A stretch of DNA of 35,546 nucleotides from positions 26,198-61,743 of the forward strand of contig PLLE01000046.1 of NCBI GenBank assembly GCA_003141245.1. The letters are read 5' to 3'. The position numbers and the translations under genes are program-made. Under the pieces are notes generated by a model that was given only the letters and a program-made list of their open reading frames with translations, ran no database searches and was not told the DNA's origin. The stretch comes from Chloroflexota bacterium. Its GTDB lineage: Bacteria; Chloroflexota; Limnocylindria; Limnocylindrales; CSP1-4. The stretch's first letter is position 1, and every line of letters starts with the position of its first letter. Below are positions 541 through 19,499 of the stretch, piece after piece.

Positions 541-582
541 CGGATCCCTGCAGCCACGCCTGACCTGGAGGTGCCTCCCGAG

Positions 583-2702: not shown

Positions 2703-3308
2703 TCACGGGCACAGGTTCGGGAAGGCCTCGATGGCCGCCAGCTCTTCGGGCGTATCAATGTCTGGATTCGATCCCTCGACGTCGACCTCCACCACGAGGT
2801 CAGGATGGTTTCTCAAGACCGGCCCGAAGCCACGATCAGAGCGTGCTTCGCCGGCGAGCGACCAGGCTGCGCGATGGACGAGCAGCGGGTTCGGGCCGCC
2901 GCCGTCCCGGTATCGAGGCAACACGATCGGCTTAGCCGCTGAGACGAACCCGGCCAGCAGTCGCTCGATTACGTCCACCCGGACCAGAGGTTGGTCACCC
3001 AGCAGGATCAGTGCGGCCTCGCTGGCCGAACTCACGTTCTCGAGCCCGACACGGAGCGAACTGGAGAGGCCAGCTTCCGGGTTCGGATTGCGGACACGTC
3101 GCTCTGACCGCCAACGCAGACTCCGTTCGATCTGATCGCCGTCGTGGCCCAGCACTACGACGACCTCCACGATGCCAACTGCAGCCACGGCGTCGAGCAC
3201 GTGAAGGAGCAAGGGACGGCCTCGCAGGAGGGCCAGCGCCTTCGGGCGCCCGAATCGCGACGAGGCGCCCGCCGCCAGGACGATCGCGGCTGTTCGACCT
3301 GCCTCCAT
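2703..3308 (-). CDS. mocA: MobA-like nucleotidyltransferase, MocA-type molybdenum cofactor cytidylyltransferase
   Basis: A 201-residue NTP-transferase-fold protein. Residues 11-24 (LAAGASSRFGRPKA) are the nucleotide-binding signature LAAGxSxRxGxxK. GDQP at 104-107 is the metal-binding motif of the MobA/MocA group, where MobA itself usually has GDxP. MocA joins CTP to molybdopterin to make the MCD cofactor used by xanthine-dehydrogenase-family enzymes. The start codon overlaps the xdhC stop by one base (TGATG), making it the last gene of the molybdenum-hydroxylase operon, where a dedicated cofactor-maturation enzyme is expected. A different NTP-transferase role is possible, but context argues for MocA. 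Confidence 0.82.
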   Translation of the reverse strand: MEAGRTAAIVLAAGASSRFGRPKALALLRGRPLLLHVLDAVAAVGIVEVVVVLGHDGDQIERSLRWRSERRVRNPNPEAGLSSSLRVGLENVSSASEAALILLGDQPLVRVDVIERLLAGFVSAAKPIVLPRYRDGGGPNPLLVHRAAWSLAGEARSDRGFGPVLRNHPDLVVEVDVEGSNPDIDTPEELAAIEAFPNLCP

Positions 3309-4465
3309 CAGCTCCCTGAAGGAGGGACGGGTGCGGCCGTCGAGGTTCCCTGGCCGGCCTCGCCGTGAGCCTTATCGCGCAGCGTCAGGCCAGTTCCTCC
3401 GTAGCGCGAGGCGACTATCTCGGCCATGATCGCGAGCGCAGTCTCTGCCGGCGCGCGCCCACCCAGGTCCAGCCCGACCGGGCTGCGTAGCTGGTCGATA
3501 TCCTCGGGACGAGCCCCAGCGGCGACCAGCCGTTCTCGTCTGGCGGCTCGCCTCTTGCGCGAGCCAATGGCGCCGACGTACCGGCAGCCGCGGGCAAGAG
3601 CCGTGACGATCGCGGGTTCGTCCAGCTTGACGTCGTGAGAGAGAACCACAACCGCGTCCGATGGGCCCATGCCGATCGTGTCCGCCACCTCGTCCGGCCA
3701 TCCCAGAACGAGCCGGTCGACGTCCGGGAACCGCTCCCGGGTCGCGAAGGCGGGCCGAACGTCCACGACGATCGTCTCGTACCCGAGTGCCTTGGCGATC
3801 GAGACGAGGGGGATGGCAATCTGGGCGGCGCCGACAACTATGAGCCTTGGTCGTGGAGCAAAAGCCTCGATGAAGAGCGAGCGACCGCCCAGCTCCACAG
3901 TCCGTGAGGTTCCCCTGGCGAGCGATTCGCGGGCGAGTCGGATCAGTTCGGCGTCAGCTTCCGGGTCCACAAGAGAGCCCTCGAGACGCCCGTCATCCCA
4001 GACCACGACGGCCGCGGCCGGTAGCTCGCCTTCCCCGGGCAGATGAGGTCCGGCCTCAGGCCCCGGCGAGTCGACTGGAAGCGGCGTGACCACGGCCCGG
4101 CCGTGGGTCGCACCGGCGGCCGCCGCCGCCCGCGCCGCCGACTCGACGGGTTCGCCCACCGCCGGCTCAATCAGCACGTCGATGGTGCCGCCGCAAGCGA
4201 GTCCAACATCCCACGCCTGCTCGTCGCTGATGCCATAGCGCACCACGCGCGAGCGACCAGTCGCCCTGGCTCGCTGGATCTCCTCGAAAGCGGCCCCTTC
4301 AACGCAGCCGCCGCTCACCGAGCCGGCAATCCGGCCGTCGGCCGTCCCGAGCAAGACCGCGCCCTCTGGACGCGGTGCGGATCCGAACGTGCGGACGACG
4401 ACGGCCCGGCCGATCTCGACGCCGTCGGCTCGCCAGGCCGCGAGGGTCTCGACAAGCTCCTTCAT
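3308..4465 (-). CDS. xdhC: XdhC/CoxI-family molybdenum-cofactor insertion protein
   Basis: A 385-residue protein with the two halves of this family. The N-terminal XdhC_CoxI domain has GSVSGGCVEG at 48-57, containing the conserved Cys. The C-terminal Rossmann domain begins at about residue 207 (LIVVGAAQIA) and contains the YVGAIGSRK segment. XdhC binds molybdenum cofactor, promotes its sulfuration and delivers it to the apo-hydroxylase. It is not part of the mature enzyme. AGGAGG lies just before the ATG on the minus strand. The gene follows the Mo-subunit gene after 69 bases and overlaps mocA by one base, so cofactor finishing (MocA) and insertion (XdhC) are linked to their target enzyme. 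Confidence 0.9.
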   Translation of the reverse strand: MKELVETLAAWRADGVEIGRAVVVRTFGSAPRPEGAVLLGTADGRIAGSVSGGCVEGAAFEEIQRARATGRSRVVRYGISDEQAWDVGLACGGTIDVLIEPAVGEPVESAARAAAAAGATHGRAVVTPLPVDSPGPEAGPHLPGEGELPAAAVVVWDDGRLEGSLVDPEADAELIRLARESLARGTSRTVELGGRSLFIEAFAPRPRLIVVGAAQIAIPLVSIAKALGYETIVVDVRPAFATRERFPDVDRLVLGWPDEVADTIGMGPSDAVVVLSHDVKLDEPAIVTALARGCRYVGAIGSRKRRAARRERLVAAGARPEDIDQLRSPVGLDLGGRAPAETALAIMAEIVASRYGGTGLTLRDKAHGEAGQGTSTAAPVPPSGS

Positions 4466-4534
4466 AGCGAAGCCTCCTGAGAACCAGGCCGCCCGGACCA
4501 GCTTCTCGCCGGCATTGCTCCGATCAGCCCGACT

Positions 4535-6814
4535 TTAGCTTTCTCCATCATCGTTCGTTCCCGCGTTCGCCCGGCCGCCTCGCTCTCGGAGCGCCCGCCA
4601 GACGCGCTCGGGCGTGAGCGGCAGATCGCGGATGGCGACACCCGTCGCCTCGCGAACAGCCGCCGCGGTGGCCGCGGCCACGCACAGCAACGCGCCTTCG
4701 CTCATACCCTTCGCGCCGTACGGGCCTGGGCCGTCGGCGTTCTCGATGGTCTCGCTCCGCATCTCCAGCGGAAGGTCCATGGTCGTCGGGATCCGATAGT
4801 CGATTGCCCCCAGGTTTCGAATCCGGCCCGTCTCGTCGTAGATGAAGTGCTCCATCAGGGTGTGGCCCAGGCCCATGATGGCGGCGCCTTCGTCCTGCAT
4901 CTGAACCTGGAGCCGGTTGATGGCGGTGCCTACGTCGGAGACCGTGACGTGGCGCACGATGGATATATCGCCGGTGCCCTCGTCGACTTCGGCTTCGACG
5001 GCGGTGCAATTGAGCTCGAAGAACGCAGCCGCTCCACCGAGCGGATGGTCCGCGTCACCGTCTTTGCGTGTCTCGCCGTTGCCTATGAGCTCGCCGCCCA
5101 GCTTACCCAAACCGGGCTTCAAGACCTCCATGAGTCTCAGCTCGCGGCCGGGCAGCCGTACCACGCCCCGCTCGACCGTGATGGCCGATTCGTCAATTCC
5201 GTGCAACCGAGCGGCCATTGTCCGGATCTGTGCCTGTATCGAGCTGCAGGCTTTGAGCACGGAGTTGCCCATCAGCACAGTCGATCGGCTGGCGGACGTC
5301 TGCTGGTCGTAGGGAACGATCGCGGTGTCGCCCATTACGACCCTGATTGCGTCGAGCGGCGCGCCTAGCTCCTCGGCTGCGATCTGGGCGAAGATGGTCC
5401 GCGCCCCTTGACCCATGTCCGACGTGCCGGCGTAAATCGCCACGCTGCCATCGGCCAGGAGACGGACCGTGGAATAGGACAGGCCGGTCGTGGGGCCCGA
5501 CTTGATGCCGAGCGCGATACCGCGCCCGTGACCCGGTGCCAGCGGTTTGCCCCATTCGATCATCTCGGCGGCACGCCGGAGCGTCTGTTCCCAGTCGCCG
5601 TCGGCCGGCGTATCGAAGGGGATAAACGGGTCCCCTTTTCTGGCAAGGTTGCGCAGACGGATCTCGAGCCGGTCGATTCCGAGAACGCGGGCGCCTTCGT
5701 CGATGTTCGACTCAACCGCCCAGTTGACCTGTGGGTTGCCGAAGCCGCGGAAAGCGGTGGACGGCGTCGTATGCGACAGGATGCTCCGGGCGAAGATCCG
5801 AACCGCGGGCACGTTGTACGGGCCTGCGCCGGGGTAACTCCCTTTTCCCACGACCCTGTCGGCGATGTCGCAATAGGCGCCGATGAGGTAGTCCGCCTTG
5901 ATGTCCTGAAAAGCAAGCTTGCCGTCGATGGTGAAGCCGGTTCGGACGCGGATCTCGGTGGCCGCGCGGCGTACCGCCTGGAAAGTCTGCTCGAGGCTCA
6001 GGACGAGGCGGACGGGCCGTCCTGCTCTGATTGCCGCGAACGCCACCAGGGGCTCGTACTTCGCGTGCTGCTTTCCGCCGAATGCGCCGCCGGGATCGGG
6101 CGCGAGGACCCGAACCTTCGAGAGTGGCAGGTCGAGGAGCTTCGCGAGGATCCTTTGCAGCCAATACGGATGCTGGATGGAGCTCCAGACGGCGATGCCG
6201 TTGTCATCGGGCGCGGCAATGAACGCGTGAGGCTCGATGGCGAAATGAGTGACGATCGGGAAGGAATAGGTGTTCTCGACGACGACGTCGGCATGTGCCG
6301 CCTCAATGTCGCCCCAGTCGACATGATGCTCCCGCAGGACGTTGGTTGAGGCGAGCGGGTCCTTTGGTCGTAGCGACGGATCCTGGACGAGCGGCGCATC
6401 GGGGTCGAGCGCAGCCGCGAGGGTGAAGACCGCCGGCAGCTCCTCGTACTCGACGTGGACCAGTCTCGCCCCCTCTTCCGCCGCGTCTTTCGTGTCGGCG
6501 GCAACGATCGCCACCGGCTCTCCGTGATACTTCGTCTCATCGACTGCGATCACGGGTCGATCCTCGAGCTGCGGTCCAAACCGCGGCATCGGCTGGGGCA
6601 GGTCGGCGGCAGTCATGACCAGGCGGACACCCGGGACCTGCTCCGCCTCGGATGTGTCGATCGAGATGATCTTCGCCCGCGCGCAGTCGAGCGTGACCAG
6701 CTTCGCCTCGAGAACGCCGGCGAGGCGAACGTCCGCCACATACTCCTGCAGCCCCGAGACCCGCCCGATGCCGCCGACGCGATTGGGGGACGAGCCGATC
6801 GAAGACGCGCTCAT
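4535..6814 (-). CDS. Xanthine-dehydrogenase-family molybdenum-binding (large) subunit
   Basis: A 759-residue subunit that carries the Mo-MCD active site. Recognisable segments are GGAFGGK at 242-248 and TAFRGFGNPQ at 353-362. The latter is the XDH-like loop, not the AYRCSFR loop of form I CO dehydrogenase. SDMGQGARTIFAQIAAEELG near 465 and GAKGMSEGAL at 700-709 follow. Glu706 occupies the place of the catalytic base that is usually in a GVGE context. The start at 6814 overlaps the 2Fe-2S gene stop by ATGA; the open frame extends further upstream only as a shadow of that gene. The family hydroxylates purines, nicotinate, aldehydes, quinoline-type heterocycles or, in one branch, reduces 4-hydroxybenzoyl-CoA. 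The substrate cannot be assigned. The MSE variant and the AFRGFGNPQ loop are useful for subfamily placement. Confidence 0.9.
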   Translation of the reverse strand: MSASSIGSSPNRVGGIGRVSGLQEYVADVRLAGVLEAKLVTLDCARAKIISIDTSEAEQVPGVRLVMTAADLPQPMPRFGPQLEDRPVIAVDETKYHGEPVAIVAADTKDAAEEGARLVHVEYEELPAVFTLAAALDPDAPLVQDPSLRPKDPLASTNVLREHHVDWGDIEAAHADVVVENTYSFPIVTHFAIEPHAFIAAPDDNGIAVWSSIQHPYWLQRILAKLLDLPLSKVRVLAPDPGGAFGGKQHAKYEPLVAFAAIRAGRPVRLVLSLEQTFQAVRRAATEIRVRTGFTIDGKLAFQDIKADYLIGAYCDIADRVVGKGSYPGAGPYNVPAVRIFARSILSHTTPSTAFRGFGNPQVNWAVESNIDEGARVLGIDRLEIRLRNLARKGDPFIPFDTPADGDWEQTLRRAAEMIEWGKPLAPGHGRGIALGIKSGPTTGLSYSTVRLLADGSVAIYAGTSDMGQGARTIFAQIAAEELGAPLDAIRVVMGDTAIVPYDQQTSASRSTVLMGNSVLKACSSIQAQIRTMAARLHGIDESAITVERGVVRLPGRELRLMEVLKPGLGKLGGELIGNGETRKDGDADHPLGGAAAFFELNCTAVEAEVDEGTGDISIVRHVTVSDVGTAINRLQVQMQDEGAAIMGLGHTLMEHFIYDETGRIRNLGAIDYRIPTTMDLPLEMRSETIENADGPGPYGAKGMSEGALLCVAAATAAAVREATGVAIRDLPLTPERVWRALRERGGRANAGTNDDGES

Positions 6815-7296
6815 CGGCTTCCCGCTTCTGCCACTGAGAGGACCGCCTCGAAGATCTGGTAGTAGCAGCCGCACCGGCAGAGGTTGCCGGCCAAACCCTC
6901 CTGAACCTCGGCGACATTCGGGTGCGGGTTCTCGACGAGGAGGGCCTGCGCTGCCATGAGCTGCCCGGGGGTGCAAAAGCCGCACTGAACGGCACCCTTG
7001 TCCAGGAACGCCTGCTGGAGCGGGTTGAGGTGGCCATCCCGGGCGAGCCCTTCGACGGTCAAGATCTCGGCGCCGTCCGCTTCGACGGCGAGCATCAGAC
7101 ACGAGTCCACGATCCTTCCGTCGACCATAACGGTGCATGCGCCACACTCGCCGACAAGACAGCATTCCTTCGTGCCCGTCAACTCGAGATCTTCCCGGAG
7201 AACGTCCAGCAGGGTGTGATGGACGGCTACTTCAAGCGTCCGCCGACGCCCGTTCACGGTGATCTCGATGGGAAGCGTCTTGATCACCCCACTCAT
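6811..7296 (-). CDS. Molybdenum hydroxylase 2Fe-2S subunit
   Basis: A 161-residue small subunit of normal length that passes electrons from the Mo site to FAD. The N-terminal plant-ferredoxin-type cluster is bound by Cys46, Cys51, Cys54 and Cys66 (CLVGECGACTV). The C-terminal four-helix domain binds the second cluster through Cys105, Cys108, Cys140 and Cys142 (CGFC and CRC). The last motif reads CRCGCY, where CRCTGY or CRCGTY is more usual, which adds a ninth cysteine at 144. ATGA overlaps tie it to the FAD subunit gene upstream and the Mo subunit gene downstream, so the three subunits are coupled in the order FAD, 2Fe-2S, Mo. Confidence 0.95.
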   Translation of the reverse strand: MSGVIKTLPIEITVNGRRRTLEVAVHHTLLDVLREDLELTGTKECCLVGECGACTVMVDGRIVDSCLMLAVEADGAEILTVEGLARDGHLNPLQQAFLDKGAVQCGFCTPGQLMAAQALLVENPHPNVAEVQEGLAGNLCRCGCYYQIFEAVLSVAEAGSR

Positions 7297-8168
7297 GCCT
7301 GGGCCCCCCGCTTTTCCGCAAGGCGCTCTATTGCCGTTCGCATCGCCCTCGAGCCGAGCAGGCGGAGCATCGCCATGCGGTACTCGGGGCTGGCTCGCAT
7401 CGAGCGTTTTGATGGGCTCGCTTCGGCGAACATGCGCTCGAGGACGACCTGTTTGGCGTCATCAGGTGCGCTCGGATTGGCCAGCACGTGTGTCTCGTCC
7501 TGTTCGAGGACTGGCTTCGGGCCCACGCTGCCATATGCGAGACGGGTGACCCCAGCCTCGTTCACGCTGCAGCACAGTGTCACCGACGCCAGGTCGTGAC
7601 CGCGCCGCCGCGTACGACGCAGGTGCACCGCGCCAGTCAGGCTGGCTGGAACCGGAAGCTCGATGGCGACGACGAGCTCGTTCGGCTCGAGAGAGGTGAG
7701 CCCGGAGCGAACGAAGAACTCGGAGATGGGGATGCGCCGGCTTCCGTGCGGGCCGGCGGCGACGACCACGGCACCGTAGACGAGGAGCGGTGGCGCCGTG
7801 TCCGCGGCGGGCGATGCGTTACAGATGTTGCCCGCGATCGTGGCCCGGTTCCGGATCTGGACCGAGCCGACGACAGACGCCGCCTCGGCGAGCGCCTCGA
7901 AATGCCGGCGAACCAGCCCGTTCGCCGCGAGGTCCGCCATCACGGTCGTGGCACCTATCGTCAAGACCCCGTCGCGCTCGCGGATCTCCGGGCAGAGCTC
8001 GGGGATCCGCTTGACATCGATGACCATGCCGGGCCGCGCCGAGCCGTCGCGCAGGCGGATGATGAGGTCCGTGCCACCGGCGAGGAGGCGGGTGCTCGGG
8101 CCATGAGAATCAAGAAGCGCCACCGCGTCCGCCAGGGAGACAGGCCGCTCGTACGCGAACGTCCGCAT
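7293..8168 (-). CDS. Molybdenum hydroxylase FAD-binding (medium) subunit
   Basis: A 291-residue subunit with both FAD signatures of the family, LAGGTD at 29-34 and TIAGNICNASPAAD at 110-123, followed by the CO-dehydrogenase-flavoprotein C-terminal domain. It takes electrons from the 2Fe-2S subunit and passes them to NAD+ or another acceptor. It lacks the extra 4Fe-4S-binding insertion found in the beta subunit of 4-hydroxybenzoyl-CoA reductase, so a normal oxidative hydroxylase is more likely. The stop overlaps the 2Fe-2S gene start (ATGA at 7293-7296 on the minus strand). Only 19 bases separate it from the kinase-like gene upstream. Confidence 0.93.
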   Translation of the reverse strand: MRTFAYERPVSLADAVALLDSHGPSTRLLAGGTDLIIRLRDGSARPGMVIDVKRIPELCPEIRERDGVLTIGATTVMADLAANGLVRRHFEALAEAASVVGSVQIRNRATIAGNICNASPAADTAPPLLVYGAVVVAAGPHGSRRIPISEFFVRSGLTSLEPNELVVAIELPVPASLTGAVHLRRTRRRGHDLASVTLCCSVNEAGVTRLAYGSVGPKPVLEQDETHVLANPSAPDDAKQVVLERMFAEASPSKRSMRASPEYRMAMLRLLGSRAMRTAIERLAEKRGAQA

Positions 8169-8187
8169 GTTTTGAAGCCTCCGCGGC

Positions 8188-9075
8188 TCAGAGGACCTTG
8201 TCGACCTCGTCGAGCAGCACCTGCGGCGTGGCCGCTCGGACGAAGTAATAGGGGCGGTCCGAGAACCTGGTCACCCACGTGGCGCGTGCACGGCGCAGCG
8301 GCTCAGTGTCGACCACCGGCATCGGCCAATCCGCGGCCAGCAGCTCGTTCAGCAGGAAGTAGTTCTGGAGCGAATGGAGCGTCTGGAATTGGCGCTCGAA
8401 CGGGATCATCTCCGCCAGGCTCGGATCAAAGTTGCCATCGATCGCCGGCACGATGACGACATCTACGTTGCTCGGCTCCGTGTAGAGCTCCCACGTCGGC
8501 ATGCCGCCGAAGAACTTGGCCACACCGGCTTCGGGCGCAGCCTTGTCGGCTCGCTCGGTGCCCTCGGTTCGCTTCTTGATGAAGGGCTCCCTGGAGCCCT
8601 TCACGGCGTACCCTGCGTCGTCGACGACGGTCGTTTCCGTGGAGATCAGCAGGGCGCCGCGCCGGCAGGCTTCGATCTGGCCCATGCTCTTGCCATGGTT
8701 CGACTCGCCGCCAAGGAACATCACCGTCTTGCCGTGATATCGCACGGCTGAGGCATGGAACGGGTGCTTCCCTTCGGCCTCCATTCGGAGGGCAAGCATC
8801 GCGACGACGACCTTCTGGATCGGCCCCGCCGGCCAGGGACCATTGAAGATCATCGTCCGGCCGTCGTATGAGATGGACTTGGCCCCGTCCTCGTGGAGGA
8901 CGATGTCGGGCTCCGACAGGGTCACATCGGGCGAGATCTTGACGTCGGCGAGCCGGTAGTTGAGGAAATTCAGATCCTCGAGGAGGTGCTCGCGGGGGTG
9001 ACTGCCGTAGACGTCCACCCGCAGCCGCGCGGTCTCCGCGGACATTTCTTCCGACAACTGCAGTCTCTCGTTCAT
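8188..9075 (-). CDS. HPr-kinase-like P-loop protein of unknown substrate
   Basis: A 295-residue protein. The central part resembles the catalytic domain of HPr kinase/phosphorylase and related small kinases: FHASAV at 106-111, then strand, then a P-loop GGESNHGKS at 122-130, then TTVVDDAG at 148-155 where HprK has its LVADD segment. The N-terminal 100 residues and C-terminal 140 residues are not recognised. The start at 9075 is chosen because AAGGAG precedes it; the open frame runs on to 9189 without a better ribosome site. It sits immediately before the hydroxylase genes and after the GntR gene, so it belongs to this operon. It may phosphorylate a pathway metabolite or a protein. No HPr or PTS gene is in the window, so classical catabolite control is not supported. 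Confidence 0.6.
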   Translation of the reverse strand: MNERLQLSEEMSAETARLRVDVYGSHPREHLLEDLNFLNYRLADVKISPDVTLSEPDIVLHEDGAKSISYDGRTMIFNGPWPAGPIQKVVVAMLALRMEAEGKHPFHASAVRYHGKTVMFLGGESNHGKSMGQIEACRRGALLISTETTVVDDAGYAVKGSREPFIKKRTEGTERADKAAPEAGVAKFFGGMPTWELYTEPSNVDVVIVPAIDGNFDPSLAEMIPFERQFQTLHSLQNYFLLNELLAADWPMPVVDTEPLRRARATWVTRFSDRPYYFVRAATPQVLLDEVDKVL

Positions 9076-9235
9076 GGGCTCCTTCTGCAGGCGGCCGCGT
9101 GGCGCCGTCATATTCTCCGGGTCCATACGATGGATCTCTGCCTGAGATTTCGACTTGGCGAGTGGAGTCCGACGGCATCGGGCGCCCACAGGACCATGGT
9201 CCGACGCCCGCGCCTGCGACTCGATCCTGGGCTGG

Positions 9236-10036
9236 CTATCGGCTCCGGGCGGCCGCGCCCCGGCCGCTGCGCGACCGGCTGGGTTTGGCGGCGATAGCGA
9301 TTGCCTTGGGGCGGGGAGTGGACCAACCGCCTCGTCTGGGCGGCGTACTGGCGTTGGATGCCTGGTTCGACACCGCCGGCTCGTCTATCCACGTTTCCCG
9401 GAACCTGTCGCCGGCCGAATCGAAATGGAGGTGATACGCCGTCGTTGCCAGGTCGGGATCGTGGTCGCGGAGGGCCGCGAGGATCGGGATGTGGAGGTCG
9501 GCGGCATGGCGAACGTTGACGCCGGGACTGACGAGGCTGATATAGGTGCGGGATAGCGGCTCAAGATAAGTCCAGACCCGCTGCAGCGTGTTGTTGCCGG
9601 AGATTTCGATGACGCGGGCGTGGAAGGCGACGTCTGCGACGGCCTCGGCATGGGGGTCGCCAGCGTCGGCTGCTCGCTGCATCTCCATGACATAACCCTC
9701 GAGTTCATCGAAGTCGCCGTCAGAGATATGAGGCACGGCAAGCCGCGCCCCGAGGGACTCGAGCTCGGCCCGGATGCCGTACGCCTCGAGCAGTTCAGCT
9801 TTGGTGGGATGTCGAACGCGAGCGCCGCGAAAGGCCGAGATCTCGAGAACCCCGAGGCCTTCGAGGTCGCGTATTGCCTCTCGCACGGGGGCCTGGCTGG
9901 TGCCAAGCTCCCGTGCAATCCGCGTTTCGACGATTCGGGAGCCGGGCGGATACTCACCAGCCAGGATCTGCTGCAGAAGCCGATCCTTGATCTGGTCGCT
10001 CAGGGGGCTGCGTGTGACCTGCGCGTCTCGGGGCAT
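9236..10036 (-). CDS. GntR-family transcriptional regulator, FadR/FCD subfamily
   Basis: A 266-residue regulator. Residues 11-75 form the GntR winged helix (SDQIKDRLLQQILAGEYPPG, then TSQAPVREAIRDLE). Residues 80-215 are the all-helical FCD ligand domain with its likely metal/ligand residues Asp135, His139, His182 and His204. FCD regulators usually sense organic acids or sugar acids of the pathway they control. GGAG precedes the ATG by 5 bases. The last 35 residues are basic and low in complexity and lie beyond the usual end of the family. The gene starts 11 bases after the PEP-utilizing gene stop. It is therefore in the operon and is the obvious candidate to act on the divergent region at 11857-12179. 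Confidence 0.88.
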   Translation of the reverse strand: MPRDAQVTRSPLSDQIKDRLLQQILAGEYPPGSRIVETRIARELGTSQAPVREAIRDLEGLGVLEISAFRGARVRHPTKAELLEAYGIRAELESLGARLAVPHISDGDFDELEGYVMEMQRAADAGDPHAEAVADVAFHARVIEISGNNTLQRVWTYLEPLSRTYISLVSPGVNVRHAADLHIPILAALRDHDPDLATTAYHLHFDSAGDRFRETWIDEPAVSNQASNASTPPRRGGWSTPRPKAIAIAAKPSRSRSGRGAAARSR

Positions 10037-10047
10037 CGAGTCTCCGT

Positions 10048-11856: not shown

Positions 11857-11925
11857 GGCAACTCCTCCAGTTACAGAATAAGGCGTGCTTGATCTCGGCA
11901 CCGCCTCAACCCCGCAACTCAAGTG

Positions 11926-11931
11926 GTTATA
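11926..11931 (-). promoter_or_regulatory. Possible -10 element of the minus-strand operon
   Basis: Read on the minus strand this is TATAAC, one mismatch from TATAAT, 70 bases before the ATG at 11856. No good -35 box lies 16-18 bases further upstream, so the assignment is tentative. Confidence 0.3.
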
Positions 11932-12070
11932 GCGCCTGTCCGTGCAGCGGGAACTCAGATCCTCCCGAGAGCCAGATTGGTAGTTTGTGCTCCCAGAAGC
12001 GCCACGCCCGCCATGCCGCGACGGAGCAGCGCGAGCGGATGGGCACCCGAGCCAGACGGTTCTGCCGCGG

Positions 12071-12099
12071 TTGACATTCGGGTCCGACTCACCGACAAT
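12071..12099 (+). promoter_or_regulatory. Sigma-70-like promoter of the transaldolase/mmsA operon
   Basis: TTGACA at 12071-12076 is a perfect -35 hexamer. Exactly 17 bases later GACAAT at 12094-12099 matches four of six -10 positions. Transcription would start near 12106, inside the palindrome at 12101-12118 and about 75 bases before the ATG at 12180. Confidence 0.6.
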
Positions 12100-12100
12100 C

Positions 12101-12118
12101 AAGGGCCGTATGGCCCTT
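12101..12118. promoter_or_regulatory. Perfect 7-bp palindrome at the predicted transcription start (operator or hairpin)
   Basis: AAGGGCC and GGCCCTT flank a GTAT loop, followed by two more T. It sits over the expected +1 of the plus-strand promoter, so an operator is more likely than a terminator. An attenuator-like hairpin in the transcript, or a terminator for leftward or rightward read-through, remains possible. Confidence 0.45.
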
Positions 12119-12120
12119 TT

Positions 12121-12142
12121 CATCGATCATCGATTATTGATG
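12121..12142. promoter_or_regulatory. Imperfect 22-bp AT-richer palindrome, candidate regulator site
   Basis: CATCGAT (12121-12127) and ATTGATG (12136-12142) form arms around a perfect ATCGAT core (12129-12134); 9 of 11 base pairs are symmetric. It lies just downstream of the promoter and is more AT-rich than its surroundings. The GntR/FCD protein encoded next door is the natural candidate to bind here or at 12101-12118. Confidence 0.4.
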
Positions 12143-12179
12143 CTGGGGAGTCGGGAAGTCGCAGACTTGGAGGATGCCG

Positions 12180-13268
12180 ATGACGTCAGTGAAGTGCCCG
12201 CTGCTACGCACCGCTGAGGTCGGGCAGACGGACTACTGGAACGATTCGTGCGCCTCCGAAGAGCTTGCCTACGCGATCGAGCGAGGCGCGACCGGCGCCA
12301 CCTCCAACCCCACGATCGTGCTCGAGGTTATGGGCAAAGAGAAGGGCCGCTGGGTTCCGCGCGTGAGACAGCTGGCCACCGAGAACCCGGCCTGGACCGA
12401 GGTGGAGTTGACCTGGGCGATCATCGAGGAGATTGCAGTCGCTGGCGCGGGTCTTCTGGCTCCGGTCTTCGAACGGGAGCACGGACTCAAGGGCCGGCTC
12501 TCGCTCCAGACCAACCCGGCCAACTACCCTGACCCCGAGCGAATGCTGGAGCAGGCACTCCACTTCCACGGTCTCGCCCCAAACATGCAGGTCAAGTTTC
12601 CGGTCACGGCAGCCGGCATAGTCGCCATCGAGGAAGCGACTGCGCGCGGCGTGAACATCAATGCCACAGCCTCGTTCACCGTGGCGCAGGCCCTGGCTGC
12701 GGCCGAGGCCGTCGAGCGCGGGTTGGTCCGTCTGGCTGCGACCGGCGGCGATGTCGCGTCGATGACGCCGATGTGCACCCTGATGGTCGGCCGCCTGGAC
12801 GACTGGATGCGGGTGCTCGTCGATCGGGACGAGCTGGCCGTGGACCCGTGCGCGCTCAATTGGGCCGGAATCGCAGTCCTCAAGCGAGCCTATCAGCTCT
12901 TCCAGGAGCGCGGCTATCGGAGCCGGCTGCTGGCAGCCGCCTATCGCCACCGGCTTCACTGGACCGAGTTCGTCGGCGGGGACCTGGCCATGACGATACC
13001 GCACCAATGGCAGGTTCGATTCAACGCCAGCGGCATCGACCCCAAACCCCGGATCGACCTTCCCGTCGACCCGGCCATCGTCGCCGAGCTGTCAGAACGC
13101 ATCCCCGATTTCCGGCGTGCCTACGAGCCGGACGGCCTGTCGGTCCCCGAGTTCGACACATACGGCGCAACCGTGAGGACACTGCGCAGCTTCATAAAGT
13201 CGTACCACGACCTCACCGCCGTGATCCGAGACATCGTCCTGCCAGACCCGGACGTCCGGGCCCGCTGA
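12180..13268 (+). CDS. Transaldolase-family protein
   Basis: A 362-residue class I aldolase-fold protein of the transaldolase family. Visible motifs are GATSNPTI at 38-45 (family signature TTNPSL/I), MQVKFPVT at 136-143 with Lys139 as the probable Schiff-base residue, and GVNINAT at 157-163. It is longer than ordinary TalA/B. Its N terminus (DYWNDSCASEELAYAIERGATG) fits a subgroup seen outside the pentose phosphate pathway. ATG 12180 is preferred over ATG 12174 because GGAGG (12169-12173) abuts the earlier codon and is 6 bases from the later one. As first gene of the plus operon it may cleave or transfer a three-carbon unit from a phosphorylated intermediate. No transketolase or other pentose-phosphate gene is nearby. 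Confidence 0.75.
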   Translation: MTSVKCPLLRTAEVGQTDYWNDSCASEELAYAIERGATGATSNPTIVLEVMGKEKGRWVPRVRQLATENPAWTEVELTWAIIEEIAVAGAGLLAPVFEREHGLKGRLSLQTNPANYPDPERMLEQALHFHGLAPNMQVKFPVTAAGIVAIEEATARGVNINATASFTVAQALAAAEAVERGLVRLAATGGDVASMTPMCTLMVGRLDDWMRVLVDRDELAVDPCALNWAGIAVLKRAYQLFQERGYRSRLLAAAYRHRLHWTEFVGGDLAMTIPHQWQVRFNASGIDPKPRIDLPVDPAIVAELSERIPDFRRAYEPDGLSVPEFDTYGATVRTLRSFIKSYHDLTAVIRDIVLPDPDVRAR

Positions 13269-13306
13269 CGGCTGTCATCGAGCCATTCCGCATCCAGGAG
13301 ACGCAC

Positions 13307-14848
13307 GTGACACCGTTGACGACGGGCCCGGCTGGAGCCGAGTCCGAGAAGGCCGTCGAGGTCCTGAGCCATTGGATAGACGGGCGGTCCGTCGAGGTCC
13401 GCCTCGAGCAGACCGCCCCGGTCTTCAACCCGGCCACCGGAGCCGTCATTGGGCGCGTCCCGCGCGGAGGGGCCGCCGAAGTTGACGCAGCCGTAGCTGC
13501 TGCAAGTGCAGCCTTCCCATCCTGGCGGGACACGCCGCTCATCGCTCGCAGCCAGATCTTCTTCGCCTATCGGGCCCTCGCCCACGAGCACCGGGAAGAG
13601 CTGGCCGCGCTCATCACTCGTGACCACGGCAAGACCTTCCCCGACGCTCTGGCTGAGGTCATGCGAGGCCTGGAGACGGTCGAGTTCGCCTGCGGACTAC
13701 CCGTCCACATGGCCGGAATGAACACGCCGAACGTTGCCACGAGGGTCGACACGCGCACCTTGCGCCAGCCCCTTGGCGTTGCCGCGGGGATCACGCCGTT
13801 CAACTTCCCGGCCATGGTCCCGATGTGGATCTACCCGCTCGCACTTATGACCGGCAACACCTTTGTCTGGAAGCCCTCCTCGCACACACCTGGCGCCACC
13901 CAGCTCCAAGCCGAGCTGTGGAAGGAAGCCGGTCTGCCCGACGGAGTCTTCAACGTCGTCTACGGCGGCCGCGAAGCCGTGAATGCCATCCTGGAACACC
14001 CCGGCATCGCCGCAATCCAGTTCGTCGGATCGACACCCGTGGGGCGCCACGTCTTTGAGACCGGCACAGCAAACGGGAAACGCGTCGGCTGCTACACCGC
14101 CGCCAAGAATGCGATGGTCGTTCTTCCGGACGCCGACATGGACATGGTCGCGGACGCGGCCATCGCTGCGGGCTACGGCTCGGCCGGCGAGCGATGTATG
14201 GCGCAGACGCTCGTCATTGCCGTCGGCGACGCGGGCGACCGCCTGCGGCCGATGCTGGAGGATCGAATCGGCAGGCTCAAGATTGGTCCCGGCACCGAGC
14301 CGGGCGTGGACATGGGTCCGATCTACTCGGCCGAACACCGCGCCTCGATCATCGACTGGATCGACAAGGGCGTAGCCGAAGGTGCAGAGCTGGTCGCCGA
14401 CGGAAGACCGTTCCGCCACCCGGATTATCCGGATGGGTTCTACCTGGGCGTGTCGCTGTTCGACCGCGTCACGCCGGCCATGAGCATCTATCAGGAAGAG
14501 ATCTTTGGGCCCGTTCTCGGGATCGTCCGGGCGAGCACCTTCGACGAGGCCCTTGGGCTGATCAACGCGCATAAGTACGCCAACGGGACGGCCCTCTTCA
14601 CCAGCGACGGCGGGGCCGCCCGTCGGTTCGAGCTCGAGGTCGATGTGCCGATGATCGGCATCAACGTGCCGATCCCCGTGCCTGCCGGGTACATGTCATT
14701 CGGTGGGTCGCGCGGGTCCGCCTTCGCGCAGCTCCAGATGCGCGGTGAAGACTCGATCCGGTTCTATACCCAGCAGAAAGAGGTGACCATCCGCTGGCCC
14801 GAACCGGGAAAGCGCGCTGCCTTGAGTCTCGTATTCCCCGGCAACTAG
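13307..14848 (+). CDS. mmsA: CoA-acylating methylmalonate-semialdehyde dehydrogenase-type aldehyde dehydrogenase
   Basis: A 513-residue ALDH of the MmsA branch. TPFNFPAMVPMW near 163-174 and AGERCMAQ at 293-300, with Cys297 as nucleophile, are characteristic of that branch. Classical ALDHs have GQxC at this point. MmsA/IolA enzymes oxidise malonate or methylmalonate semialdehyde with NAD+ and CoA to acetyl- or propionyl-CoA. The GTG start at 13307 has AGGAG 6 bases upstream; the open frame extending back to 12773 is a shadow of the transaldolase gene. It follows that gene by 38 bases. In this operon it probably performs the last oxidation that feeds carbon into central metabolism. Confidence 0.9.
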   Translation: MTPLTTGPAGAESEKAVEVLSHWIDGRSVEVRLEQTAPVFNPATGAVIGRVPRGGAAEVDAAVAAASAAFPSWRDTPLIARSQIFFAYRALAHEHREELAALITRDHGKTFPDALAEVMRGLETVEFACGLPVHMAGMNTPNVATRVDTRTLRQPLGVAAGITPFNFPAMVPMWIYPLALMTGNTFVWKPSSHTPGATQLQAELWKEAGLPDGVFNVVYGGREAVNAILEHPGIAAIQFVGSTPVGRHVFETGTANGKRVGCYTAAKNAMVVLPDADMDMVADAAIAAGYGSAGERCMAQTLVIAVGDAGDRLRPMLEDRIGRLKIGPGTEPGVDMGPIYSAEHRASIIDWIDKGVAEGAELVADGRPFRHPDYPDGFYLGVSLFDRVTPAMSIYQEEIFGPVLGIVRASTFDEALGLINAHKYANGTALFTSDGGAARRFELEVDVPMIGINVPIPVPAGYMSFGGSRGSAFAQLQMRGEDSIRFYTQQKEVTIRWPEPGKRAALSLVFPGN

Positions 14849-14892
14849 CACAATCGGCCATTCCGACGATCAGACCATAAAGGGGTCCGAGA

Positions 14893-15678
14893 ATGAATCC
14901 AGTGGACGCCTTCCGGCTCGACGGCAAGGTAGCCCTCGTTTCCGGGGGCGGCGGGGCGATCGGATCGACCATCGCCGTCGGGCTCGGCGGCGCGGGGGCC
15001 AGGGTCGTCGTTGCCGACATCGACCAGAAACTGGCCGACGCGGCCGCGGCGAAGGTAATCCAGGCAGGCGCCGAGTGCCTGGCGCTCGCCGCAGACATCA
15101 CCAACGAGGCGGAGGCGAGCAGGATCGTTGCCGCCGCGGTGGAACATTTCGGCCGGATCGACATCCTCGTCAACGCTGTTGGCGGCGGGGCCGGCAAGGT
15201 TCTCTTCGAGGCCCAGGACTATCCTCGTGACGCCTGGGATTGGATCATGGAGCTCAACCTCCGCAGCACGCTGGTGGCGACTCAGGCGGCGGTGCGGGCA
15301 ATGATCCAGGCAGGTTCGGGCGGGCGGGTTGTCAATATCAGCTCGGTCCGGGCCCAGCTCGGCATCGACTCCGGCTACTCCGCGTACGTGGCGGCGAAAG
15401 GGGCGATCAGCTCCCTGACTCGCCAGTGGGCGACCGAATGGGCGAAGCACGGAATAACCGTGAACGCCATCGCCCCGACGTTCGTCGACACTCCGCAGGT
15501 GGCGACGCTTCTTGGCGATCCGGCCTTCAGGGCCGGACTCGTCAGCAGGGTCCCGCTCGGCCGAATAGGCGAAACGAACGATCTCCTCGGAGCCGTCCTC
15601 TTCTTCGCTTCATCCGCCTCGTCCTTCGTCACTGGCCAGATCCTGACCATCGACGGCGGCCTCACGGCCACCCAGTAG
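14893..15678 (+). CDS. Short-chain dehydrogenase/reductase (SDR), classical type
   Basis: A 261-residue classical SDR. The cofactor motif is SGGGGAIG at 17-24. Asp42 at the end of the second strand favours NAD(H) over NADP(H). NAVGG at 94-98 replaces the usual NNAG. The catalytic residues are Ser151 (in NISS), Tyr165 and Lys169 (YVAAK), and DGG near the C terminus is also typical. It would oxidise a secondary alcohol or reduce a ketone in the pathway. A purine-rich AAAGGGG precedes the ATG by about 8 bases. It lies 44 bases after mmsA and 18 bases before the MBL-fold gene, inside one operon. Confidence 0.88.
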   Translation: MNPVDAFRLDGKVALVSGGGGAIGSTIAVGLGGAGARVVVADIDQKLADAAAAKVIQAGAECLALAADITNEAEASRIVAAAVEHFGRIDILVNAVGGGAGKVLFEAQDYPRDAWDWIMELNLRSTLVATQAAVRAMIQAGSGGRVVNISSVRAQLGIDSGYSAYVAAKGAISSLTRQWATEWAKHGITVNAIAPTFVDTPQVATLLGDPAFRAGLVSRVPLGRIGETNDLLGAVLFFASSASSFVTGQILTIDGGLTATQ

Positions 15679-15696
15679 CCTGCAGGGAGTGTCCAG

Positions 15697-16593
15697 ATGG
15701 AAAAGGTGTCGGAGAACATCTTCACCAACACGAAACTGCGGGGCTGCAATCCGAGCTACGTGATCACGGCCGACGGCGTCGTTGTGATCGACACGCCCCA
15801 GTTGCCCACGAAGGCCGTGGCGATGCGGAAGGAGGCCGAATCCAACGGTCCCATCCGCTATGTCATCAACACCGAACACCACGTTGACCACATCTTCGGC
15901 AACTACTACTTCAAGGGCGCCGGCGCGGTCGTCAACCACCAGGGCGTATACGACAATTTCATGGTCGTCTCCCCAGAGTTGGATCCGTTTGCATACGCCT
16001 ACGAGGCTCTCCCCACGCCGGCCGGCAAGGGCACTGATCTCGACGATCCCGAGGGCGTCGCACTCTGGCCGGACCGGGACGAGTACTACCGAGACCCGAA
16101 CAAGGGCAAGATCGTCTTCAGCGGAGACCTAACGCTGCGGGTCGGCGACCACACGTTCCATTGCCTCCACACCCCCGGGCACACCCCGGGCCAGATCGCG
16201 GTTCATGTTCCCGAGGAGCGCACGGTCTTCACCGGCGACACGATCTTCTCCGGATGTCAGACCTGGCTCATGTCATCAGACGTGGACCAGTGGATCGCGT
16301 CCCTCGACCGAATCCGCGCCCTCGACGTCGATCGAGTCATCCCCGGACACGGCCCGATCACCACCAAGGACTACGTCGAGACGCAGCGAGCGACCCTGAT
16401 GGAATGGAAGACGGCCGTGGCCGTGGCCGTGGCCAGGGGTTGGTCCCGCGAGGAGACGATGGCCAGGGTCAATTTCGCGGATCGTTGTCCCGTCGACATC
16501 GGCCAAGGTTACATGATGGGCTACATCCAGACGCTGAATGCCGGATCGCTATGGGACAAGCTCACAGCGACCCCGCCCGGCACCATGCGCTGA
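15697..16593 (+). CDS. MBL-fold metallo-hydrolase with Glu at the first metal-ligand position
   Basis: A 298-residue metallo-beta-lactamase-fold protein. The signature loop reads EHHVDH at 60-65, so the first His of HxHxDH is Glu60, while His62, Asp64 and His65 are kept. The remaining ligands are present: His162 (HTPGHTPGQ), Asp181 (FTGDTIF) and His218 (PGHGP). The fold hydrolyses thioesters, lactones, phosphodiesters or sulfate esters, and in flavodiiron proteins binds iron. Here a lactonase or thioesterase role within the pathway is plausible but unproven. An insertion around 100-140 (ALWPDRDEYYRDPNKG) is not part of the core fold. The gene is 18 bases downstream of the SDR. Confidence 0.82.
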   Translation: MEKVSENIFTNTKLRGCNPSYVITADGVVVIDTPQLPTKAVAMRKEAESNGPIRYVINTEHHVDHIFGNYYFKGAGAVVNHQGVYDNFMVVSPELDPFAYAYEALPTPAGKGTDLDDPEGVALWPDRDEYYRDPNKGKIVFSGDLTLRVGDHTFHCLHTPGHTPGQIAVHVPEERTVFTGDTIFSGCQTWLMSSDVDQWIASLDRIRALDVDRVIPGHGPITTKDYVETQRATLMEWKTAVAVAVARGWSREETMARVNFADRCPVDIGQGYMMGYIQTLNAGSLWDKLTATPPGTMR

Positions 16594-16705
16594 ACGGTAA
16601 TCACCTGAGGGCGTCATAGCCGGGGCGGAGACTCCGCGGTCGCCCGGCGCGCCGACCAACCGGCCACCCCGAAGCGCGGGGCGAAATGAAAGGACACGCG
16701 GGACG

Positions 16706-18877
16706 GTGGCCCTCGTCTTCGACCTCGACCACGACCATGGCCTGCCGGAGCAGGATCTGAAGAACCTGATCGGCGGCAAGGCCGCCGGTCTCAACGTCAT
16801 GGCCACGCAGCTGAAGCTGCCGGTACCGCCCGGCTTCGTGATTACCACGGCCACCTGCAACGCCTATCTGGCAGGCGGCTGGCCGGAAGGCCTCGACCAG
16901 GAGCTGCGCGAGCACATGGCCCGGACCGAGGCTGTGGTGGGCCGCCGCTTTGGCGATCCCAAGGACCCACTGCTGGTCAGCGTCCGCTCGGGCGCGCCGG
17001 TCTCGATGCCGGGGATGATGGACACCATCCTCAACCTGGGCCTGAACGAGGCGACAACCGCCGGGCTCGCCTCAGTGTCGGGCAATCCCCAGTTCGCGCT
17101 CAACTGCCACGAACGCTTCAAGAAGATGTTCAGGGAGATCGTCGGCGTCGACGTCGTCTCGGAAGATCCATGGGAGCAGCTGCGGGCCGCCTCCGAAGCG
17201 GTCTTCCGCTCGTGGAACGGCGACCGCGCTCGCACGTACAGGCGGTTCGAAGGGATCCCCAACGACCTCGGCACCGCGGTCACCGTCCAGACGATGGTCT
17301 TCGGCAATCGGGGCAACGATTCGGCCACCGGCGTGCTGTTTACCCGTGACGCCGCCACGGGTACGCCCGATCTGTACGGCGACATCATGTTCAACGCTCA
17401 GGGCGAGGACGTGGTTGCCGGAACCCACGTGACCGAGACGCTTGCTGCCCTGGACGAGCAACTCCCGGCGATCGCGGCGCAGCTCCGCGGCTACGCCCGT
17501 GATCTGGAGCGCCACTACACTGACCTCTGCGACATCGAATTCACGATCGAGCAAGGCAAGCTCTGGATGCTCCAGGTCCGTGTAGGAAAGCGCACTCCAC
17601 AGGCTGCCCTACGGATCGCAGTCGACATGGCCGAAGCCGTCGACTTCCCGCTATCCAGGGAGGAGGCCGTCAAGCGCGTTGCCAGGCACCTGTCGAATCC
17701 TCCCAAGGTCTCCGTCCGCCGCCCCGACGACCTGACCGCCCTGACTATCGGCCTCGCTGCTTCGCCGGGAGTCGCTTCGGGCGAGATCGCGACCTCGGCC
17801 GACGCCGCCGCGACGGCCGCAGACGCCGGCAGAAGAGTGATCCTGGTACGTGCCGAAACTTCGCCCGACGACGTCCACGGCATGGCCCGCGCGGCCGGCC
17901 TGCTCACTTCGAAAGGCGGATTCGTCAGCCACGCGGCAGTCATCGCCCGAGGCTGGGGGATCCCGGCCGTCGTCGGCGCGAGTGCGGTCGAAGTGGGGGA
18001 CGGAACGATCGTGATCTCCGGACGCCGTTTCTCCGCCGGCGAGACGATCTCGATCGACGGCTCAACGGGGGAAGTCTTCGCGGGCGAGGTCTGCGGCAAC
18101 GCCGAAATCGTCCCGGAGGCGGCCAAGCTGCTCTCCTGGGCGGGAGAGCTCGGTATCGGGATCGGCGATGGCCCCGGTCCGGTCGCAGATCGGGTAGCCA
18201 CGGATGGAGTGGCCGACGGTTCGGCGCTTGCCGATGTCGAGCCCTCGGGCGCTGAGAAGAGCCAGGACGACGTCGTCCGGAGCCTGCTGGTCAGAGGCCC
18301 TTCTACTCTCGAGAGCCTGGCATTGTCGCTGCTGGCGGATCCCGCGAGCCTGCGGCCGCTGCTCGACGGCGCGGTGGCCGGGGGGATGGTCGAGATCAGC
18401 GGCGGATGCAACTTCAGACTGACTGCGGATGGAAAGCTCCAGGCAGGCGAGTTGATGGTCGCCGACCGAGAGCGGTGGGGCGTCGACAACGCCGGGGCAG
18501 CGCTGGACGGCTTCGTCCCGCTCGACCATCGGATGAAGGACACGGTGACCGCCTGGCAGATGAAAGAAGTGGACAGTCAGTCGGTCCTGAACGATCACGG
18601 CGACCCGGACTACGACGCCGGGGTCCTGGCCAGACTCGGGAGCCTTCACGACGACATGGTGATATGGCTGACTGGTCTCTCGGCCGGCCTGGGGCGACTC
18701 GATGCCTATCGGGTCCGGCTCGAGCGGGCGTTGGCCCTGGCCCGAGGTGGCGACCAGCGCTACGTGGCCTCGCCTCGTGTCGAGAGCTACCACAGCGTCT
18801 GGTTCGAGCTCCACGAGGATCTGATCCGCCTCAGTGGCCGGAAGCGCGCCGACGAGATGGCCGCGGGAAGGGCTTGA
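16706..18877 (+). CDS. Pyruvate-phosphate-dikinase-like protein lacking the PEP-binding barrel
   Basis: A 723-residue protein with a GTG start. Residues 1-340 are a complete PPDK ATP-grasp domain: GGKAAGL with Lys25, SVRSGAPVSMPGMMDTILN with Arg94, and DIEFTIEQGKLWMLQ with Asp277, Glu279 and Gln290. Residues 345-470 are the swivelling domain with SKGGFVSHAAVIARG and His409 as phosphohistidine. The C-terminal PEP/pyruvate TIM barrel of true PPDK is absent. In its place are about 250 residues with a possible winged-helix segment (525-585) and a helical end. It can therefore probably phosphorylate its own His from ATP but needs another acceptor site. That is the role of the ATP-binding partner in phenylphosphate-synthase-like systems. 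It closes the operon and ends inside a strong hairpin. Confidence 0.8.
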   Translation: MALVFDLDHDHGLPEQDLKNLIGGKAAGLNVMATQLKLPVPPGFVITTATCNAYLAGGWPEGLDQELREHMARTEAVVGRRFGDPKDPLLVSVRSGAPVSMPGMMDTILNLGLNEATTAGLASVSGNPQFALNCHERFKKMFREIVGVDVVSEDPWEQLRAASEAVFRSWNGDRARTYRRFEGIPNDLGTAVTVQTMVFGNRGNDSATGVLFTRDAATGTPDLYGDIMFNAQGEDVVAGTHVTETLAALDEQLPAIAAQLRGYARDLERHYTDLCDIEFTIEQGKLWMLQVRVGKRTPQAALRIAVDMAEAVDFPLSREEAVKRVARHLSNPPKVSVRRPDDLTALTIGLAASPGVASGEIATSADAAATAADAGRRVILVRAETSPDDVHGMARAAGLLTSKGGFVSHAAVIARGWGIPAVVGASAVEVGDGTIVISGRRFSAGETISIDGSTGEVFAGEVCGNAEIVPEAAKLLSWAGELGIGIGDGPGPVADRVATDGVADGSALADVEPSGAEKSQDDVVRSLLVRGPSTLESLALSLLADPASLRPLLDGAVAGGMVEISGGCNFRLTADGKLQAGELMVADRERWGVDNAGAALDGFVPLDHRMKDTVTAWQMKEVDSQSVLNDHGDPDYDAGVLARLGSLHDDMVIWLTGLSAGLGRLDAYRVRLERALALARGGDQRYVASPRVESYHSVWFELHEDLIRLSGRKRADEMAAGRA

Positions 18878-18893
18878 GTCGGGCCCTTCCCGC
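18863..18893 (+). terminator. Strong hairpin at the end of the catabolic operon
   Basis: GCGGGAAGGGC (18863-18873) and GCCCTTCCCGC (18883-18893) are perfect 11-bp arms around a 9-base loop that contains the TGA stop codon of the PPDK-like gene. The tract after it is not T-rich, so intrinsic termination may be incomplete, but the stem and its position mark the operon end. Confidence 0.6.
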
Positions 18894-19014: not shown

Positions 19015-19032
19015 CATCGGGGTGGCTGGTTG

Positions 19033-19419
19033 ATGACACAAGTCGATCCGGGCGCCGATCGCTCCAGGACCTTCCCCGCGGGCGTCCGGCCCGCCCAGCG
19101 AATCTGGCTCCACGACCAAGGCATGCCGGTCTTTGGGATCGGGATCCGCGAGCTGCTCATCCGGGTCGAGTCGACGGGATCGCTCCGTCAGGCCGCGTCC
19201 GACATGGGTATGGCATACAGCAAGGCCTGGCACATCGTGCGTCGGGCCGAGGAGCACCTTGGCTTCACGCTGCTCCAGCGACGAACCGGCGGCACAGGTG
19301 GCGGAGGCTCAGCTGTGTCCGATGAGGGGAGACGGCTCGTCGAGGCCTTCGGCGCGTTGCTCGACGAAGCGGACACGTTGCTCGACGAACTCTACGCGAA
19401 GCATTTCGGCAACTGGTAG
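19033..19419 (+). CDS. modE: ModE-type DNA-binding protein, winged-helix domain only
   Basis: A 128-residue protein equal to the LysR-like winged-helix domain of ModE. The helix-turn-helix is STGSLRQAASDMGMAYSKAWHIVRR in parts (48-71). The glycine-rich wing GGTGGGGSAVSDEGRRL (86-102) is highly characteristic of ModE (GGKGGGG in other species). There is no C-terminal TOBE/Mop molybdate-binding domain, so effector sensing must be indirect or occur through a partner. The N-terminal 30 residues are extra. ATG 19033 is chosen over the preceding TTG. A ModE-like palindrome lies just upstream, and an ABC transporter begins 80 bases downstream. Confidence 0.85.
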   Translation: MTQVDPGADRSRTFPAGVRPAQRIWLHDQGMPVFGIGIRELLIRVESTGSLRQAASDMGMAYSKAWHIVRRAEEHLGFTLLQRRTGGTGGGGSAVSDEGRRLVEAFGALLDEADTLLDELYAKHFGNW

Positions 19420-19499
19420 CACGCGGGGGACGACATCCGGATCGAGAGAGCGCCCGGACAAACACATCCACCCACAAGAGATCAGGAGGATTCCGTCAC

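Follow-up and report, generated by a model that had tools for sequence, protein, structure and literature searches.

What joins a molybdenum hydroxylase, a phosphotransferase resembling a split PEP synthase and a transaldolase/MmsA branch, all facing away from one shared control region in a soil or sediment Chloroflexota bacterium? The genes lie in a window of 35,546 nt, which is the whole stretch of DNA analysed (positions 26198-61743 of contig C26 of G000, a 2.54-Mb, 47-contig genome assembly); close named relatives are Chloroflexota MAGs, some of them labelled Limnocylindrales and CSP1-4. The open reading frames and protein families match the two divergent operons and the gene names given in the first-pass annotation. 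One operon is on the minus strand (2703-11856) and the other on the plus strand (12174-18877), separated by a divergent control region of 317 bp (11857-12173):

2703-3308, minus: MobA-like NTP transferase (PF12804, NTP_transf_3), read as the MocA cytidylyltransferase of Mo-hydroxylases
3308-4465, minus: XdhC, Mo-enzyme maturation (family match)
4535-6814, minus: Mo-hydroxylase large subunit, 759 aa (Pfam Ald_Xan_dh_C, MoCoBD_1 and MoCoBD_2)
6811-7296, minus: 2Fe-2S subunit (family match)
7293-8168, minus: FAD subunit (family match)
8188-9189, minus: HprK-like P-loop protein with the P-loop GGESNHGKS, likely start 9045-9075 (AlphaFold/Foldseek)
9236-10036, minus: GntR/FCD regulator, candidate operator binder (family match)
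10048-11856, minus: PEPu602, a 602-aa PEP-utilizer, predicted substrate-binding and swivel component of a dikinase, His547 (PpsA homology, structural model)
12071-12099, plus: putative promoter of the plus operon, TTGACA, 17 bp, GACAAT (consensus match, read from the sequence)
12122-12137, strand not assigned: operator ATCGATCATCGATTAT, proposed GntR/FCD site (conserved motif)
12174-13268, plus: transaldolase-like enzyme, Schiff-base Lys141 (PF00923)
13307-14848, plus: MmsA-type CoA-acylating semialdehyde dehydrogenase, start 13274 or 13307 (TIGR01722)
14893-15678, plus: SDR dehydrogenase (family match)
15697-16593, plus: MBL-fold hydrolase (family match)
16706-18877, plus: PPDK723, 723 aa, PPDK-type ATP-grasp plus swivel domain (His409), the TIM barrel being replaced by a C-terminal domain

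The large subunit begins at an ATG (start 6814) in a 4-nt overlap with the 2Fe-2S gene. An Rfam scan of the window gave no matches.

Co-inheritance of the gene set

The window's gene set is more than a chance assembly, as it recurs in many other genomes, those of the same family included, often in rearranged order. A scan of GTDB genomes yielded 250 relatives of PEPu602, of which 80 were kept, and neighbours were counted in the 48 loci whose downstream flank reached 6 kb or more; some protein searches covered 400 Chloroflexota genomes and others 40 chosen genomes, with Fisher tests of association. Among 33 genomes of the window's family, a sample that limits but does not remove the effect of shared ancestry, the HprK-like protein and PEPu602 always occur together: 18 genomes carry both and 15 carry neither (P = 1e-9). 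PPDK723 occurs in 17 of the 18 module-positive and none of the 15 module-negative genomes (P = 1.5e-8), the sole exception being G427, where the beginning of the gene lies at the edge of a contig; the MBL gene is distributed in the same proportions (17/18 versus 0/15, P = 1.5e-8), one 41% paralog aside. The transaldolase is only loosely tied to the module (17/18 versus 10/15, P = 0.07). The first-pass annotation had staked its reading beforehand on co-occurrence of the set across genomes, which these distributions bear out.

A conserved operator and its candidate regulator

The motif ATCGATNATCGATNAT is common to the regions upstream of the transaldolase gene in relatives, and its copy at 12122-12137, just downstream of the TTGACA-17-GACAAT promoter-like sequence, is the sole exact copy in the 2.54-Mb assembly; a second copy with one mismatch overlaps it (12129-12141). 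With one mismatch allowed, the collected loci hold 174 distinct sites, versus 0.3 expected from mononucleotide shuffling. An exact site is found in 15 of 20 module-positive genomes versus 9 of 380 other Chloroflexota genomes (400 in total; P = 3e-17), and nearly every site in module-positive genomes lies on a contig that carries module genes. The genes nearest the sites encode the transaldolase, PEPu602, a DUF1097-like membrane protein, UPF0261, GntR, SDR, cupin, PPDK723, transketolase and dehydrogenases, and further sites stand upstream of branched-chain-type ABC permeases, aldehyde dehydrogenases and a GH3 glycosidase.

The GntR/FCD protein is the candidate binder of the 12122-12137 operator, because sites adjoin its own gene upstream of the GntR orthologs in L020, L147 and L158. 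The classical FCD operator (TNGT..ACNA) was rejected: the window's control region has no copy of it, and in relatives it was found 11 times versus 4.6 expected, with no clear enrichment. A conserved operator in the shared control region, together with the co-occurrence of the genes across genomes, supports the earlier proposal of one regulon, and the best reading is that the two operons would constitute a single GntR-controlled catabolic regulon. The operator also offers a handle for finding inducer and substrate.

A predicted two-component dikinase

PEPu602 is a full-length homolog (24% over 607 columns, E 1e-32) of the Azoarcus KH32C PpsA, whose gene lies in a cluster annotated as phenylphosphate synthase/carboxylase, although a long branch sets PEPu602 relatives apart from the PpsA/CreH references. 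It lacks the PEP/pyruvate TIM-barrel domain, and the column of its swivel histidine (His547) is invariant in 33 homologs. The best structural match to its AlphaFold model (pLDDT 87) is rifampin phosphotransferase (RPH; 5fbu, E 3.6e-19), a likeness reported for HpeH too (PMC12167813). Carriers of PEPu602 include Chloroflexota, Acidimicrobiia, Rubrobacteraceae, cultured Thermogemmatispora, Paracoccaceae/Rhodobacteraceae and the megaplasmid of Thermomicrobium roseum.

PPDK723 likewise has no PEP/pyruvate TIM barrel, and only PPDK_N and PEP-utilizers domains were detected in it; its earlier description as PPDK-like holds for the ATP-grasp and swivel domains but not for the barrel. The C-terminal third of the protein (~220 aa) matches a separate ~200-aa gene that adjoins truncated PPDKs (Mycobacterium avium, Diaphorobacter plasmids), so that PPDK723 looks like a gene fusion. 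A separate PpsB/CreI-type ATP-grasp protein is present in relatives such as Thermomicrobium roseum. The ATP-grasp partner of PEPu602 is PpsB-like in 12 loci and PPDK723 in 21, with both in none, and no PpsB homolog was found in the G000 assembly at E<=1e-15; on the simplest reading of these two observations, PPDK723 appears to replace PpsB as the partner. The HprK-like protein and PpsB also never share a locus.

PEPu602, supplying the substrate domain and swivel histidine, and PPDK723, supplying the ATP-grasp, would together form an ATP-dependent small-molecule dikinase. The first-pass term "split PEP-synthase-like phosphotransferase" was right in kind and can be sharpened to a probable two-component dikinase of the PpsAB/CreHI/HpeHI type with the ATP-grasp partner swapped. 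PPDK723 would be the ATP donor for PEPu602, and its possession of a swivel histidine of its own means that it may not simply serve PEPu602.

The HprK-like protein matches no Pfam or NCBIfam family. Its AlphaFold model (pLDDT 88) has PEPCK (E 2e-7) and HprK (E 3e-4) as best Foldseek matches, both with low TM-scores. In 35 homologs the P-loop GGESNHGKS is invariant through the lysine, and its last serine is at least 90% conserved. The P-loop and kinase fold of the HPr kinase/PEP carboxykinase superfamily are thus present. A catalytic Asp-Asp after the P-loop is the reference motif of the superfamily; around the spacing at which this pair would be expected, the protein reads S-T-E-T-T, of which E-T-T is invariant, with Thr-Glu in place of the pair. 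As a guess, the HprK-like protein may regulate the dikinase.

The molybdenum hydroxylase

As in Mo-hydroxylases of the XDH family, the window's set comprises Mo, 2Fe-2S and FAD subunits, Moco motifs, a catalytic glutamate, which aligns with that of 4-hydroxybenzoyl-CoA reductase and quinoline 2-oxidoreductase, and the helpers XdhC and MocA. The enzyme scores under every NCBIfam equivalog cut-off, so that no such family assigns it a substrate. Mo subunits are found near PEPu602 in 47 of the 48 loci, from Chloroflexota to Rhodobacteraceae. From one lineage to another the large subunits share no more than ~33-37% identity (37% for the window and T. roseum, 34% for the window and Thermogemmatispora), so that the pairing with PEPu602 has outlasted a strong divergence.

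Beyond the plus operon, positions 19030-22440 encode an HTH protein of the LysR type that looks like the N-terminus of ModE, followed by FecB/FecC/FecE-type ABC genes; the latter are possibly a MolABC-kind molybdate/tungstate uptake system serving the Mo enzyme. Elsewhere on the same contig (L015, G000:C26:6200-26197), a second Mo-hydroxylase set with CoxG, GntR and sugar-type ABC genes (9027-14902) adjoins a truncated copy of the transaldolase (residues 1-53) that has kept a degenerate operator (9269).

A proposed lower pathway

The transaldolase-like enzyme matches PF00923 (TAL_FSA) at 121 bits, with Lys141 aligned to the transaldolase lysine motif, and MmsA scores 625.7 bits against TIGR01722 (cut-off 448.5). 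Homologs of this transaldolase occur in inositol (iol) clusters without the dikinase/Mo module, and L130 encodes a DKG kinase and L147 a DKG kinase/aldolase, both above curated cut-offs. These genes, with MmsA, are features of the iol pathway and suggest an inositol-like end of the pathway, whereas its upper part is here replaced by the dikinase and Mo-hydroxylase. IolB, IolD and IolE were all absent from the window, where only two Gfo/Idh/MocA genes (571-2663) were found. MmsA occurs in just 12 of the 48 PEPu602 loci, and neither it nor the transaldolase is an obligate part of the module. The transaldolase is probably no simple replacement for IolJ, as it coexists with IolC and a DeoC-type aldolase in the iol cluster of a Clavibacter plasmid; nor are PEPu602 and PPDK723 likely to be the DKG kinase, as the operons of L130 and L147 hold a DKG kinase besides PEPu602.

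A PF04199 hydrolase ("cyclase") is encoded in 33 of the 48 loci; this family (cyclase3) was not found in G000, so that the MBL protein is no more than a candidate ring-opener there. No histidine- or HD-type phosphatase was seen in the window, though relatives carry one, a point against the pathway proposed below.

Paralogs of the transaldolase-like gene are found in inositol clusters in L024, L028 and L030-L034, in L024 beside transketolase and MmsA, and make a DKG-transaldolase route conceivable. Just upstream of the regulon (window 571-2663 and L015 16798-19997) are genes for a PfkB kinase (IolC-like) and an old-yellow-enzyme-type (OYE) reductase, along with the two Gfo/Idh/MocA (GFO) genes; OYE and GFO genes also adjoin the module in L058 and L020/L092.

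Proposed pathway, known relatives and alternative explanations

The whole is best explained, and we think probably so, by a GntR-controlled regulon in which a dikinase of PEPu602 and PPDK723, a Mo-hydroxylase and a ring-opening enzyme would feed an inositol-like lower pathway. The dikinase would phosphorylate a hydroxyl group of an imported ring compound, and the three-subunit Mo-hydroxylase would then oxidise the phosphorylated compound, most likely at a carbon beside a ring heteroatom. From the neighbouring genes we guess that a hydrolase (the MBL-fold protein here, the PF04199 protein in many relatives) would open the ring, and that the SDR or zinc dehydrogenases would oxidise the opened chain. 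The lower pathway, presumed like the ring opening, would proceed through transaldolase/transketolase here, or DKG kinase and aldolase in some relatives, and then MmsA, and would end in triose units and either acetyl-CoA or propionyl-CoA. A cyclitol or an oxygen heterocycle derived from a sugar would suit as substrate; transporters are sugar-type in some loci and branched-chain-amino-acid-type in others, and indicate no single substrate.

The order of the first two steps is drawn by analogy: characterised dikinases phosphorylate first, and the Mo-hydroxylase should therefore act on a phosphorylated substrate, the reverse of the sequence in the first-pass annotation, which placed hydroxylation ahead of phosphorylation. 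In CreHI-type chemistry, a P450 acts on the phosphate ester after the dikinase, and the P450 version of the cluster was seen on a Rhodococcus plasmid. PpsAB, CreHI and HpeHI are dikinases of phenol, 4-cresol and hydroxyphenylethanones, respectively. With HpeHI and its relatives (PpsAB), phenolics are phosphorylated first and a carboxylase then acts on the phosphate ester (PMC12167813, PMC9618137); the authors of the HpeHI study considered the reason for phosphorylating such compounds before breakdown unclear (PMC12167813). PEPu602 shares with these systems its layout (a substrate domain and a C-terminal swivel histidine), full-length similarity and the RPH-like fold (PMC12167813). Unlike them, the present system has, instead of a PpsB-type ATP-grasp, a PPDK-type partner that carries a swivel of its own and an additional C-terminal domain, a Mo-hydroxylase instead of a carboxylase or P450 as the next enzyme, and an added HprK-like protein.

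It is unlikely that two unrelated pathways, the dikinase with its Mo-hydroxylase and an inositol-type transaldolase-MmsA-SDR branch, stand side by side and share the intergenic region by chance. The presence of the transaldolase family in inositol clusters without the module, and the absence of transaldolase and MmsA from many PEPu602 loci, would be expected on such an account, but the MBL and PPDK723 genes of the second operon are co-inherited almost perfectly with the first, 27 of 81 loci keep the transaldolase divergent from PEPu602, and one operator lies upstream of genes from both operons. PPDK723 and PEPu602 might instead recycle PEP, pyruvate and AMP in central metabolism with no phosphorylation of a substrate, as their PPDK-type ATP-grasp and swivel domains and a PEP-hydrolase-like gene near some homologs could suggest; the absence of the PEP/pyruvate TIM barrel from both proteins, and the RPH-like substrate domain and full-length PpsA similarity of PEPu602, make this decidedly unlikely. 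Least credible, indeed very improbable, is an action like that of the PigC/RedH ligases, in which the substrate is activated for condensation and no stable phosphate ester forms: PEPu602 does score against the RedH and PigC profiles, but only over its C-terminal part and far under the cut-off, and its neighbours are catabolic and transport genes.

A further alternative retains the mechanism but makes the substrate a simple N-heteroaromatic, for instance a hydroxypyridine, with transaldolase, transketolase and MmsA serving carbon recycling only. The 3-hydroxypyridine dehydrogenase of Ensifer adhaerens HP1, a Mo-hydroxylase, reportedly depends on a similar pairing, with a PEP-utilizing protein as well as a PPDK; that system is not known to have a transaldolase, transketolase or MmsA branch. 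Such a substrate appears improbable here, as the loci read showed no recognisable gene for a pyridine-diol ring-cleavage dioxygenase or for the maleate pathway, and the inositol-type kinases and aldolases, with the GH3 glycosidase beside an operator site, suggest a carbon skeleton closer to that of a sugar.

A full-text search for a described pathway with the pairing of dikinase and Mo-hydroxylase found none, most subscription journals being outside its coverage. More tentatively, as a proposal that we doubt slightly more than we believe, the regulon may represent a further class of phosphorylation-primed catabolism, in which an aryl-phosphate-type dikinase tags a hydroxylated ring for a Mo-hydroxylase whose product passes to transaldolase/transketolase and MmsA, and in which the Chloroflexota have replaced the classical ATP-grasp subunit by a PPDK-derived protein, usually with a degenerate HPr-kinase-like partner and under one conserved operator. 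In kind, the system would extend known phosphorylation-primed catabolism to a Mo-hydroxylase with a swapped kinase partner. A kinase of the HpeHI kind is tied to a Mo enzyme across lineages that include Chloroflexota, Acidimicrobiia and Rhodobacteraceae, as well as in cultured Thermogemmatispora and Thermomicrobium, and the coupling is therefore directly testable.

Variants and recurrent neighbours of the module

A compact version of the module in L135-L139, L142 and L158, cultured Thermogemmatispora included, draws on genes for PpsB, the PF04199 hydrolase, the Mo-hydroxylase, a histidine phosphatase and fumarylacetoacetate-hydrolase-like and monooxygenase-like proteins, of which single loci may lack some, and offers a practical model for bench work. 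UPF0261 (Tm-1-like; 17 of 48 PEPu602 loci) and PEP-hydrolase-like (11 of 48) genes often form a pair beside PEPu602 with the operator upstream (L152 14966-17073; L073 4550-6653). A membrane protein of ~240 aa with no Pfam match, DUF1097-like by eye, is encoded in L129 (5784-6506) and 11 other loci, often beside or between the transaldolase and PEPu602 genes with the operator upstream, and is possibly a transporter.
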